A stretch of DNA of 64,000 nt from an uncultured Psychroserpens sp. (GTDB taxonomy: Bacteria; Bacteroidota; Bacteroidia; Flavobacteriales; Flavobacteriaceae): positions 1-64,000 of the forward strand of contig NZ_CANLNS010000002.1 of NCBI RefSeq assembly GCF_947492715.1, given 5' to 3'. The position numbers were made by a program, and so were the translations under genes. Within the stretch, counting starts at the first letter, position 1; each line of letters starts with the position of its first letter. The notes under the pieces were generated by a model. That model had not been told where the DNA came from and searched no databases. It saw only the letters and a list, made by a program, of their open reading frames with translations. Shown one piece after another: positions 10,593 through 15,561 of this stretch.

Positions 10593-10596
10593 CACC

Positions 10597-10933
10597 AAGC
10601 AGATCGCCTTATCGCAGTGGCATTTATTGTCTCTGAGGAAAGTCCGAACACCATAGTGCAATCATAGTGGCTAACAGCCATCCATCGTAAGGTGAGGAAA
10701 AGTGCAACAGAAAGAATGTACAGGTTAAGCTGTAGTGAAACCAGGTAAACTCTATGAGGTGCAATGTCATGTATACCAACGCTTGAGTGCGGCACGTGCG
10801 ATTGTTGGAGGGTAGGCAGCTAAAGTTTGCTGGCAACAGTAAACGTAGATAAATGATAAGGGCTTTTCTTTTTTTTGAGAATTCATTTTCTCAAAAAAAG
10901 AAAATGTACAGAATTCGGCTTATAGATCTGCTT
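10597..10933 (+). ncRNA. rnpB: RNase P RNA (bacterial class)
   Basis: Hallmark CTGAGGAAAGTCCGAACACCATAG and ACAGAATTCGGCTTATAG; 5' aagcagatc pairs with 3' gatctgctt (P1); P4 AAG-U-CCGAA pairs with UUCGGCUU keeping the bulged U; T-run follows. Confidence 0.95.
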
Positions 10934-10941
10934 TTTTTCTT

Positions 10942-10960
10942 TTTTGACACGTTTTGACAC
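10942..10960 (+). promoter_or_regulatory. Direct-repeat site TTTTGACACG-TTTTGACAC upstream of the TPR/LuxR gene
   Basis: Two TTTTGACAC copies, 10-bp period; identical 19-mer recurs at 12649 and a variant at 13772. Confidence 0.6.
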
Positions 10961-11016
10961 TTTAGTTACGGTCGTTTTTTTCTGTTCTGATTTTTGATAA
11001 TCATTAGTTTTATAGC

Positions 11017-12645
11017 ATGAAATGTATTATATCATATATCCTGTTTTTTTCCTTGTCACTTTCAGTTTTATCTCAGGAAATAGATAGTGTTAGAGTTATT
11101 TTAGAAAGTAATTTAAAGGAAGCAAATTCAGAGGCTCAAAAGTTAAACGCTATGTTGGCTTTGGGAGAACTTGAATTGGATCATAATTTTACAAAAGCAA
11201 AGTATATCATTAATGATGCATATGAATTAATTAATAAAACACCTACAAAATTCACTAATCATGAAAAGGCTTTAGTATTAGTTCAATATGGTGTGCTTAA
11301 AAGACGTTTGGGTAAACATGTTGAGGCTTTAGACAGCTACCTCCAAGCTTTAAAACGATTTGAAGTAGACGAAGACGATAAAAATATAGCAGATGTGTAT
11401 CATAACATCGCCATGGTCTACAGGTCGCAAAAAGAGTATCGTAAGTCTATTCAATATTTTAAAAAATCTATAGCAGTTAATCAGGCTTTAGATAATAACC
11501 ACGGCGTGGCTCAGGCGACTCTAATGCTTGGAGTCTCTTATAGTAGTACTAAACAATTAGATTCGGCGTTGATTTGTTATAACAAGGCAAAAGCCATTTT
11601 TAATACACTTAATGCAGACGAACAACTTCAAGAGGTTAATGACAATTTAGTAGCGATTTATAGAAAGCAGAAAGACTATGATGCGGCTTTGAATCTTAGT
11701 TTAAAAAACGTCGATTATTCGAAGCGTAAAGGAAAGCAATTGGCTTTGTGCGGAAATTACTATGATACCGCCTTAGTTTATGAAAAACTTAAAGCCTATA
11801 AATTGGCTGGTAAATATGTAGATTCCTCAATAAAATTAGCAAAGAAGGAAAAATTTATTCATCGTATAGCAAAAGGCTATAAAAAGCGTTCTCAATTATG
11901 GAATAAATTAGAGAATTATGGAGCAGCTTATAGAGATTATAAGCGCTTTAAAAAATATTCAGATTCTATTTTTAATATAGAAACGGTATCACAAATTCAA
12001 GAATTAGAACTGAAATATACTTTTGAAAAAGAACAGCAAGAAGCTAAATTGATTACAGAAAATGAACGCTCCAAAAAATGGTTGTATTTAGCTTTGTTTA
12101 TTCTAACATTAATTGTGGCCATTACGATCACCTTATTAGTACAAAAAAATTATAGAAATAAAATTGAATTAGCACGTATAAATCATAAAGCCGAGACACT
12201 GTCTTTAGATCAGGAAATTAAAAATAAAGAAGTTAATGTTAAACAACTTATTGCAGATAATACGATGCGATTAGATTTTAAAAAGGAATTATTGGATCGC
12301 ATTAGAAATGATAATGAGACAGCAGATGCTAAAGAATTCATTTCAAAACTAGCCAATGATTTAAGGCTTCAAATTGAAACAGAAAGTAAATTATCTAACT
12401 TACAACATACCATAGATGCTACAAATACAGCATTCGATACTGTTTTAAAAACACGCTTTTCTGAGTTAACAAAAGGAGAACGAGAAGTAGCTTCTTTATT
12501 ACGTTTAAATTTGAGTGTCAAAGAAATTATGACGATTCGTAATGTTTCAGAAGATTCTGTTAAATCTATGCGTCGTCGTATTCGGAAGAAAATGCAAGTT
12601 CCTAAAACACAACGTATAGAAGATTTTATTCAATCGCTCAATTGA
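11017..12645 (+). CDS. TPR-repeat, single-TM regulator with C-terminal LuxR-type HTH
   Basis: Signal peptide, TPRs (ALDSYLQALKRFEVDEDDKNIADVYHNIAMVYRSQKEYRKSIQYFKKS), TM WLYLALFILTLIVAITITLLV, C-terminal LTKGEREVASLLRLNLSVKEIMTIRNVSEDSVKSMRRRIRKKM. Confidence 0.85.
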   Translation: MKCIISYILFFSLSLSVLSQEIDSVRVILESNLKEANSEAQKLNAMLALGELELDHNFTKAKYIINDAYELINKTPTKFTNHEKALVLVQYGVLKRRLGKHVEALDSYLQALKRFEVDEDDKNIADVYHNIAMVYRSQKEYRKSIQYFKKSIAVNQALDNNHGVAQATLMLGVSYSSTKQLDSALICYNKAKAIFNTLNADEQLQEVNDNLVAIYRKQKDYDAALNLSLKNVDYSKRKGKQLALCGNYYDTALVYEKLKAYKLAGKYVDSSIKLAKKEKFIHRIAKGYKKRSQLWNKLENYGAAYRDYKRFKKYSDSIFNIETVSQIQELELKYTFEKEQQEAKLITENERSKKWLYLALFILTLIVAITITLLVQKNYRNKIELARINHKAETLSLDQEIKNKEVNVKQLIADNTMRLDFKKELLDRIRNDNETADAKEFISKLANDLRLQIETESKLSNLQHTIDATNTAFDTVLKTRFSELTKGEREVASLLRLNLSVKEIMTIRNVSEDSVKSMRRRIRKKMQVPKTQRIEDFIQSLN

Positions 12646-12648
12646 AAC

Positions 12649-12667
12649 TTTTGACACGTTTTGACAC
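12649..12667 (+). promoter_or_regulatory. Direct-repeat site TTTTGACACG-TTTTGACAC upstream of the T9SS protein gene
   Basis: Identical 19 nt to the site at 10942. Confidence 0.6.
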
Positions 12668-12731
12668 GTGTTTTTTGTGGGTTTGAAACGTTTAGCTATG
12701 TATTTTAGCTGAAATTTTAAACCTTTAATCG

Positions 12732-13745
12732 ATGAAACCTACTGTCTTACTGTTACTTTTTAGTTTACTAACATACAGCACCAATGCTCAAATCACTCAA
12801 GATAATACGGCATTAAGTGGTTTAGTACCTTCAGACTCACCAGTTTCTATTACTGTACCTACAGGGAATGATAAAGCGCTGATTATGGTGATTAGCGATG
12901 CTAGCTCTGCTCAAGTTTCTGATATACAAAACTTTAATGGCTTGCCAGTATATAGCTTAAATGATTCTGGTTTTGAGACTAAAGTTTTCATAGTCTACTT
13001 AGGTGATGTCACTACCGAATTTGTAGCTGATTTAAATTTTTCAAAAGGTATAAATACAGTATTTACTTTAAATAATGTAGAGCAAACTATGGATGATACT
13101 AAACTTAATGATTTTGAAAACATCATTGGGCAAAAGCCTGTGTTTACGCATTTAGGTAGTTTAAATAAAGAGCCGGGTGATTTTGTAATAAATGGATTTA
13201 GAATAAGTAACTCACTTGGAGGTGAATGCGCACAACCAGAGTTTAGTATTTTTAATTCTCAAGGAAACACAGTCAACCTTGAGTTTGAACAATCTGCTGG
13301 AGTAGGATCGGGTCTTCAATGGACTATTTATTCGTCTATTGTTTCCAATTCTAACGAGTATACAATGTGGTCTTTAGCAGATAATTGTTTCGATAATACC
13401 ACTGGTCGTTATGCTGATGATTTTCAATATTATGCCGTTAGACACTATAGTATTATTATAAAATCTGTACTCGAAGAAACACTTACTACTGCCGTTATTG
13501 ACAATGAGATAGATTTTAAATTATTTCCTAATCCAACTGATTCCATTTTACAATTTAACCAATCTTTTAATGGAACATATGCAATTTATAATACCTCTGG
13601 TAAGAATGTACTGTCATCTAAATCGGTTGAAATCGTTAATCATATTAATATTTCAACCTTATCAACAGGCACTTATGTCATTAAAATAGAAACTAAGGAT
13701 GGTAAATCTTTCCAAAAACAATTTATAGTCAATACTAGAAAATAA
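12732..13745 (+). CDS. Secreted protein with T9SS type A sorting domain
   Basis: Signal peptide MKPTVLLLLFSLLTYSTNAQ; C-terminal FKLFPNPTDSILQFN...GTYVIKIETKDGKSFQKQFIVN. Confidence 0.85.
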   Translation: MKPTVLLLLFSLLTYSTNAQITQDNTALSGLVPSDSPVSITVPTGNDKALIMVISDASSAQVSDIQNFNGLPVYSLNDSGFETKVFIVYLGDVTTEFVADLNFSKGINTVFTLNNVEQTMDDTKLNDFENIIGQKPVFTHLGSLNKEPGDFVINGFRISNSLGGECAQPEFSIFNSQGNTVNLEFEQSAGVGSGLQWTIYSSIVSNSNEYTMWSLADNCFDNTTGRYADDFQYYAVRHYSIIIKSVLEETLTTAVIDNEIDFKLFPNPTDSILQFNQSFNGTYAIYNTSGKNVLSSKSVEIVNHINISTLSTGTYVIKIETKDGKSFQKQFIVNTRK

Positions 13746-13771
13746 TGCTGTTAAGTCATTAGCAAACATAA

Positions 13772-13788
13772 GCGACACCTTTTGACAC
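13772..13788 (+). promoter_or_regulatory. Variant direct-repeat site GCGACACCTTTTGACAC upstream of the LRR protein gene
   Basis: GACAC-N5-GACAC at 13774 and 13784, same 10-bp period as sites at 10942 and 12649. Confidence 0.5.
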
Positions 13789-13820
13789 TCATCTTTTATG
13801 AGCCAAAATAATACAGCCAT

Positions 13821-13828
13821 TATTTTTG
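13821..13828 (+). promoter_or_regulatory. Putative -7 element for the LRR protein gene
   Basis: TATTTTTG (TAnnTTTG), 31 bp before ATG at 13859. Confidence 0.5.
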
Positions 13829-13858
13829 CAAAAAATTAAAAACACTAAATCTACACAA

Positions 13859-15436
13859 ATGAAACACTTTTACCTACTATTAATATCACTAGTCTTTACA
13901 TACACGACAAATGCCCAATATACTGTCATTCCTGACGCGAACTTTGAAATTGCATTAGCAGCCTATGATGACATTGCAGGAGATGGACAAGTACCAACTA
14001 ACAATATAAATACACTAACTTTTTTAAATGTTGGAGACAATAATATAAGTAGTCTTAATGGGATTCAGGATTTTGAAGCATTAGAGCAGTTAAGATGTAA
14101 TAATAATAATCTTATGACTTTAGATTTAAGTCAGAATTTAAACCTTCAAAGATTGCGTTGTTACAATAACCCACTAGTTAATTTAGATTTGTCTAATAAC
14201 CTTCAACTATTTGAATTAAGAAGTTATGCGTGTCCTTCACTTACGAGTTTAAATATTGCTAATGGAAATAATAGTAATATCAATCACCTTAACATCTCTT
14301 CTAATACAAATTTAACGTGCGTCGAAGTAGATAACCCAACTATCGCAGATGATTGGAACAATAATATAAACTTACCAGGAACATACTCCGCAGGATCTAA
14401 CGTTGTTTATTGTGTTTTAGGCGTAAACGAAACTTATGTGCCAGATGATGCTTTTGAAGCGTATTTAGAATCCAACAGTTTAGGTAATGGCATTGCTAAT
14501 GACAATAGAGTTGATAAGAGTTTAATAAGTACAGTAACTTCAATTAACCTAGAGAACCTAGGCATTATAGATGCCATTGGTATCAACGAGTTTGTCGTTT
14601 TAGAAACCTTGCAGGTTAATGATAATAACCTAGAGGTCATTTATCTAGACAATTTAATCAATTTAGTTACGTTTAGAGCAACTCGCAATAACTTAGTTAC
14701 GTTAGATTTAAGTAATAGTACAAGTCTTGAGGTTCTTATTGTAGATTCAAATAATCTGTCTACACTTTTATTAAATTCAACCGTATTCATATATTATCAA
14801 GTCGCTGGGAATAACTTTTCATCCATAGATTTAACTAATTTTCCATTATTAGAAAGACTCTTTTGCAGTGGAAATAATATATTAAACTTGGATGTTAATA
14901 GTAATCCAGAATTAATTACAATAGAATGTCAGAATAATGATATTGAAAGTCTTGATGTATCCAACAATCCAGATTTAGTTAGCTTATTAGCTTTCAGTAA
15001 TGCGTTAACCTCTTTAGATGTTAAGAATGGGAATAATGGTATCATGACTACTTTTAGAGCCGATAACAATACTAATTTATCGTGTGTAGAAGTTGACAAT
15101 GAAGTAGCAGCTACAGATGGTTTCGGGAATTATTCAAGTTGGATGAAAGATGCTGGTACTGTATATTCTGAAGATTGTGCTGCGACGTTAGGGACAAACA
15201 CCTTTGAGTTAAATACTATTTCTGTATATCCCAATCCAGTTGAGAATATTTTGAATATCAATGCAACTAATAATGAATTAAAAAGATTAGAGATAATAGA
15301 TATTAATGGTCGACTAGTGATTACAAAATATAACAGCTTTGAGAACGTAGATATGCATCAATTGAATGCAGGCGTATACTTTATGAGGTTATACAACAAG
15401 AGTGCTACTAAGACACTTAAACTTATTAAGCAATAG
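13859..15436 (+). CDS. Leucine-rich-repeat secreted protein with T9SS type A sorting domain
   Basis: Signal peptide MKHFYLLLISLVFTYTTNAQ (start re-assigned from 13826); repeats LVTLDLSNSTSLEVL/LLNLDVNSNPELITIEC; C-terminal ISVYPNPVENILNIN...GVYFMRLYNKSATKTLKLIKQ. Confidence 0.88.
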   Translation: MKHFYLLLISLVFTYTTNAQYTVIPDANFEIALAAYDDIAGDGQVPTNNINTLTFLNVGDNNISSLNGIQDFEALEQLRCNNNNLMTLDLSQNLNLQRLRCYNNPLVNLDLSNNLQLFELRSYACPSLTSLNIANGNNSNINHLNISSNTNLTCVEVDNPTIADDWNNNINLPGTYSAGSNVVYCVLGVNETYVPDDAFEAYLESNSLGNGIANDNRVDKSLISTVTSINLENLGIIDAIGINEFVVLETLQVNDNNLEVIYLDNLINLVTFRATRNNLVTLDLSNSTSLEVLIVDSNNLSTLLLNSTVFIYYQVAGNNFSSIDLTNFPLLERLFCSGNNILNLDVNSNPELITIECQNNDIESLDVSNNPDLVSLLAFSNALTSLDVKNGNNGIMTTFRADNNTNLSCVEVDNEVAATDGFGNYSSWMKDAGTVYSEDCAATLGTNTFELNTISVYPNPVENILNINATNNELKRLEIIDINGRLVITKYNSFENVDMHQLNAGVYFMRLYNKSATKTLKLIKQ

Positions 15437-15508
15437 TATGTTGTAATAGCTAATTAGTTTATTTTTAAGATTATATAGAGGCTTTATGTGCTACAAACTT
15501 AAATAAAG

Positions 15509-15537
15509 AACCCTTTACAAACTGTAAAGGGTTTTTT
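15509..15537. terminator. Bidirectional terminator hairpin
   Basis: aaCCCTTTACaaactGTAAAGGGtttttt between convergent genes. Confidence 0.75.
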
Positions 15538-15561
15538 ATCAGTAACATAATCTGAATGGGA

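Follow-up and report, generated by a model that had tools for sequence, protein, structure and literature searches.

Three copies of a paired GACAC repeat in the window (the whole 64-kb stretch of DNA analyzed here) are best read as operators of the adjacent regulator, a predicted one-component activator tethered to the membrane whose private regulon would comprise two genes, and we place the probability of this reading at roughly 0.8. Motif rarity and placement, conservation, operator-to--7 spacing and covariation were computed; binding, activation, the topology and a signal in the form of a periplasmic protein or peptide were inferred. The features of the locus are as follows:

10596..10938, + strand: rnpB, RNase P RNA class A (Rfam RF00010, 192.5 bits), the fixed left neighbor of the cassette
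10942..10960, + strand: predicted operator site 1, TTTTGACACGTTTTGACAC, preceding the regulator gene, with non-canonical spacing
10989-10996, + strand: -7-like element of site 1, GATTTTTG, 34 bp from TG
11005-11012, + strand: alternative -7-like element of site 1, TAGTTTTA, 50 bp from TG
11017..12645, + strand: TPR-TM-LuxR-type HTH regulator, 542 aa (Pfam TPR_12 2.1e-28, GerE 3.3e-5)
12649..12667, + strand: predicted operator site 2, just past the regulator stop (12645) and before the 337-aa T9SS gene
12701..12708, + strand: -7 box of site 2, TATTTTAG, a 5/6 match to TAnnTTTG, 39 bp from the second half-site TG
12732..13745, + strand: 337-aa secreted protein with T9SS type A sorting domain (Por_Secre_tail; PF18962 9.5e-12, TIGR04183), predicted target
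13772..13788, + strand: predicted operator site 3, GCGACACCTTTTGACAC, preceding the LRR/T9SS gene
13821..13828, + strand: -7 box of site 3, TATTTTTG, a 6/6 match, 38 bp from the second half-site TG
13859..15436, + strand: 525-aa LRR protein with T9SS type A sorting domain (LRR_4 6.4e-7, PF18962 4.3e-13), predicted target
15508..15540, + strand: hairpin terminator at the far cassette end, directly 3' of rnpB in most relatives without the cassette

Both the 337-aa and the 525-aa proteins scored above the cut-offs of PF18962 and TIGR04183 for the type A sorting domain. Transcription of the 337-aa gene would start near 12713 and that of the LRR/T9SS gene near 13833. The Rfam scan around the window and family loci returned nothing except rnpB.

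The 19-mer TTTTGACACGTTTTGACAC was found at 10942-10960 and again at 12649-12667, and the third copy at 13772-13788 was the variant GCGACACCTTTTGACAC. When the 64-kb window was searched for GACACN5GACAC, exactly 3 matches were obtained compared to 0.02 expected from shuffles, and 0 of 100 shuffles reached 3; the three GACAC repeats of the preliminary description were thus borne out, with none elsewhere in the window. All three lie on the strand of three consecutive genes, each preceding one. The whole 4.2-Mb genome likewise contained exactly 3 matches, all in one 2.8-kb stretch, compared to 1 for the reversed-pattern control. When up to 2 mismatches to TGACACNTTTTGACAC were allowed, 6 extra genome matches were found, equal to the control count of 6, and a half-site TG with a -7 box at 38-39 bp was present in none of these 6. 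The proposed check for the paired motif elsewhere in the genome therefore came back empty (0 further exact matches, relaxed matches at control level, none in the canonical promoter context), and the motif can be considered private to the cluster. Across 400 Flavobacteriaceae genomes, TGACACNTTTTGACAC occurred only at the window's two sites and in one copy in an apparently unrelated mobile element; this match, in genome G026, was taken as chance, with integrase-like genes adjoining and no TPR-LuxR regulator nearby.

The regulator consists of a signal peptide (residues about 1-20), a TPR superhelix (about 24-297), a TM segment (about 355-375) and an HTH (about 484-540), with the recognition helix around V515-K525. 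Its N terminus is signal-peptide-like and the hydrophobic segment at 355-375 is followed by basic residues; sensor and DNA-binding domain are joined in one chain by a TM helix, in a topology that is predicted only. The GerE match (PF00196, E=3.3e-5, residues 483-531) scored 23.9 bits, barely above the Pfam cut-off of 23.5, and Pfam found no kinase domain in the regulator. The AlphaFold2 model (pLDDT 81) contained the TPR superhelix and a long helix that runs through the membrane segment, and its C-terminal domain has four helices. In a PDB fold search the best matches were the TPR proteins LGN, NprR and RapF, with LGN first, which is generic TPR similarity. The FimS histidine kinase (NF053520) was rejected as an assignment at 61.7 bits compared to a cut-off of 600, the match being confined to the TPR/TM part. 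Membership in the BT3442 family (NCBIfam NF053779) was also rejected because the score of 35 bits was far below the curated cut-off of 940.

Tandem direct repeats adjoin TPR-TM-LuxR-HTH regulators in about 20 Flavobacteriales genera. Their half-site has the format TG-N4-5 with a period of 10-11 bp, and they mostly lie shortly past the regulator stop, before the next gene. The window sites share this format, being tandem direct repeats with a TG-started half-site and a period of 10-11 bp beside the regulator, and the GACAC motif is one version of a broader family-wide half-site. Homologues at 24-49% identity carried related but different repeats, for example TTGCCACTTTTTGTCAC, TTGTTACCTTTTGTTAC, TTGTCTAGTTTTTGTCCAG, TTGATACCCTTTTGATACC and TGTCCACCCGTTGTCCACC. 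Generic 8-mer direct repeats were found beside 33 of 44 regulators compared to 11.5 expected from shuffles. TG-started repeats were present in the regulator flanks of 21/25 loci of the first set and 13/19 of the fresh set, compared to a control of about 0.1 per 300 bp; the fresh set is a cleaner test than the collection of 46 operators, yet it includes members of a previously seen genus. No repeat was detected by the automated scan at about a quarter of the regulator loci. An early repeat scan with a T-run requirement was uninformative (16 compared to 8.6 expected), in part because minus-strand loci were left unreoriented. The strict composite TTGNNAC...TTGNNAC...TAnnTTTG proved too strict a pattern, with 6 matches in 301 genomes compared to 4 in the control, near chance overall; 3 of the 6 (G243:C7, G243:C14 and C1:232058, a paralogue in the window genome) were at TPR-LuxR or surface-gene loci.

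At the family loci, the product of the gene after the operator was often a large protein that is secreted and contains LRR, YadA-head or S74 domains. At the distant members L104 and L115, an GTTACCTTTTGTTAC operator preceded an apparent amino-acid symporter gene (identity judged by eye), and targets are therefore not only surface proteins. Two further TPR-LuxR paralogue loci were present in the window genome, at C3:249719-251200 (L073/L144) and C1:232058-232116 (L171), and their repeats differed, TTGTACATGATTTGTACATGA and TTGCTACCCTTTTGCTACCCC, respectively. At four loci from four genera (L152, L156, L159 and L162) a conserved stretch, GTCATTAATTTGACA..TTTTGTGGT..CTGCAGAC, followed the operator and -7 box about 100-200 nt past the regulator stop; it had no Rfam match and may represent a leader RNA that has not been described before.

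Start mapping in F. psychrophilum (PMC9723704) gave both the consensus of the sigma-A -7 box, TAnnTTTG, and its position at -12 to -5; with the box placed there, the operators span about -61 to -45. Measured from the second half-site's TG, a -7 box matching at least 5/6 positions stood at 38-39 bp for 37 of 46 operators, a collection that includes related pairs and was gathered partly by eye. When only perfect -7 boxes over 15-60 bp were considered, 17 of 18 were at 38-39 bp, and the automated test placed the box at 38-40 bp in both the first and the fresh locus sets. Window sites 2 and 3 followed the 38-39 bp rule (39 and 38 bp, respectively). The distances given earlier from the start of the second GACAC to the -7-like element (33, 38 and 37 bp) were correct, the lack of a TTG 19-21 bp before the three -7 boxes was agreed by eye, and the proposal of activator-type promoters gains support from the fixed 38-39 bp spacing. 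Site 1 was outside the rule at 34 or 50 bp, and at the upstream-of-regulator site of locus L063 the nearest perfect -7 box was also 50 bp away. At both of these sites a -7-like box lies just before the start codon, and 50 bp is one helical turn beyond 39.

To find which protein reads the repeats, 34 regulator-operator pairs, several of them close relatives, were compared. The residue after the conserved recognition-helix Lys (S517 in the window regulator) sorted the half-sites across the 34 pairs: Ser went with TG[ACT][CGT]AC, Met or Val with TGT[T/A], and Lys mostly with TGTCC. Half-site distance correlated with recognition-helix distance when TPR distance was controlled for (partial Mantel r=0.52, 0/5000 permutations), and TPR distance given the helix added nothing (r=-0.03). 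The strength of this covariation is uncertain, since the permutation leaves some shared ancestry in place and the pairs include several close relatives, but its direction is clear. Covariation with the helix and not with the TPR domain is strong evidence that the adjacent HTH reads the operator, and gives indirect support to DNA binding by the regulator.

The sites were also followed into related loci, where the preliminary description had asked for conservation. In the two close relatives, L004 and L006, with a regulator 97% identical, three and two sites were kept, respectively, and one was found in Lacinutrix (L005), which favors the proposal. Site 2 was conserved in L004 and L006 and stood at the equivalent place in L005; site 3 was conserved in L004 but missing in L006, where the gene junction has recombined. 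In the latter, P. luteolus (L006 7600-7860), the 337-aa gene has a replaced 3' end and the LRR gene a replaced 5' end, and site 3 is gone. Only 34 nt separate the L006 surface genes, and the LRR gene could therefore be read from site 2. At the Lacinutrix locus (regulator 70% identical), ATGACACCTTTTGACAC was found 9 nt past the regulator stop, ahead of a gene for an LRR surface protein and 39 bp from the -7 box TACTATTG; the non-coding DNA of this locus has diverged, yet the operator repeat was retained. No site was found upstream of the Lacinutrix regulator gene. Control of the two surface genes by the regulator, as proposed earlier, is thus supported by rarity, conservation and covariation, whereas autoregulation is the weakest part of that proposal, given the unusual spacing at site 1 and the lack of a site ahead of the Lacinutrix regulator gene.

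The regulator was present at high identity in 3 of 25 genomes of the genus. In most of the other 22, rnpB was followed directly by the hairpin terminator and then by the genes found downstream of the window cluster; with the window hairpin at 15508-15540, the cassette therefore sits between rnpB and its terminator. The cassette comprises the regulator and two T9SS genes; the comparison covered window positions 10596-15540 and loci L174-L198. A homologous regulator also stood after rnpB in Lacinutrix (L005) and in a third genus (G143; L064), which suggests either a preferred site or shared ancestry.

In the proposed mechanism, the TPR domain of the regulator would be in the periplasm and the LuxR-type HTH in the cytoplasm. 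HTH monomers would bind two same-face TTGACAC half-sites 10 bp apart, at about -61 to -45, and the bound HTH would help sigma-A RNA polymerase use the TAnnTTTG -7 box without a good -33. Site 2 would turn on the 337-aa T9SS gene and site 3 the LRR/T9SS gene. Site 1 is probably also bound by the regulator, but the geometry of this site is different, and the regulator may either weakly activate or repress its own gene from there. The private regulon would be the cassette alone, and the signal a periplasmic protein or peptide.

Activation rather than repression is a sign taken from geometry alone, and the operators could be real with a bound regulator that represses, periplasmic signal removal freeing expression and site 1 serving negative autoregulation. 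The non-canonical spacing of site 1 (34 or 50 bp) and the 50 bp at the L063 upstream site agree with repression. However, sites 2 and 3 and most family sites are at a fixed distance upstream of the -7 box, in an activator position and without a -33 element, and such rigid spacing is unnecessary for a repressor; we consider repression unlikely.

Direct repeats at 10-11 bp are common to several factor families, and TTGACA is similar to the classical -35 hexamer, as would be expected if a response regulator or alternative sigma factor read the repeats and the TPR-LuxR gene were merely linked. This is very improbable given that the half-sites covary with the recognition helix of the regulator and not with its TPR domain, that the motif is absent in the remaining genome, and that TTGACA at 38 bp is too distant from the -7 box for sigma contact. 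The repeats might even be non-regulatory scars that recombination or duplication left in a modular cassette of genes, which is found in 3 of 25 genus members adjoining rnpB and whose gene junction has recombined in L006. We give this almost no weight: the shared part is limited to a 15-19 bp core, the spacing to the -7 box is fixed, and the half-sites of homologous loci differ from one another in step with the HTH.

The activator that we favor resembles several known systems in part. With the LuxR/FixJ (GerE) superfamily it shares a C-terminal four-helix HTH with a GerE Pfam match and same-face half-sites, but here the HTH ends a membrane-tethered TPR protein and the sites repeat directly every 10-11 bp within a fixed promoter frame. 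Like CadC/ToxR-type membrane-tethered activators, it is predicted to have a periplasmic sensor, one TM helix and a cytoplasmic DNA-binding domain; unlike them, it has the opposite order (sensor N-terminal, HTH C-terminal), a LuxR-type rather than OmpR-type domain, and a TPR sensor. The RRNPP/Rap peptide-sensing proteins (RapF, NprR) are similar in TPR superhelix fold (PDB search), a generic likeness, but are cytoplasmic and Gram-positive, and a peptide signal is only presumed here. Sites 2 and 3 use the TAnnTTTG -7 box of Bacteroidota sigma-A promoters, with the difference that a tandem operator about 38-39 bp upstream replaces the usual -33 element. The BT3442 family (NF053779) comprises TPR proteins and matches regulator residues 80-529 weakly (35 bits), far under its 940-bit cut-off; BT_3442 is located at a cluster that encodes surface and MACPF proteins, and the parts of that source consulted do not describe an operator (PMC2954219).

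In the openly accessible literature, subscription papers being outside the scope, no earlier description of TPR-LuxR regulators with operators in Bacteroidota was found. Taken together, these findings make it reasonably probable that membrane-tethered TPR-LuxR activators form a large and so far undescribed family in the Flavobacteriales, whose members each have a private tandem operator within the same rigid promoter frame (second TG, 38-39 bp, TAnnTTTG) and mostly drive a neighboring surface-protein gene, and in which a few recognition-helix residues would set specificity and give many mutually insulated pairs across and within genomes. To our knowledge, the known operators of Bacteroidota regulators are few outside polysaccharide utilization. 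A motif from one window would thereby become a family-wide rule, in which a recognition-helix residue corresponds to a half-site and the site position is fixed relative to the -7 box. Such a rule predicts targets for many uncharacterized TPR-LuxR proteins, would explain how surface-protein cassettes can bring their own switch when moving, and offers insulated activator-promoter pairs.
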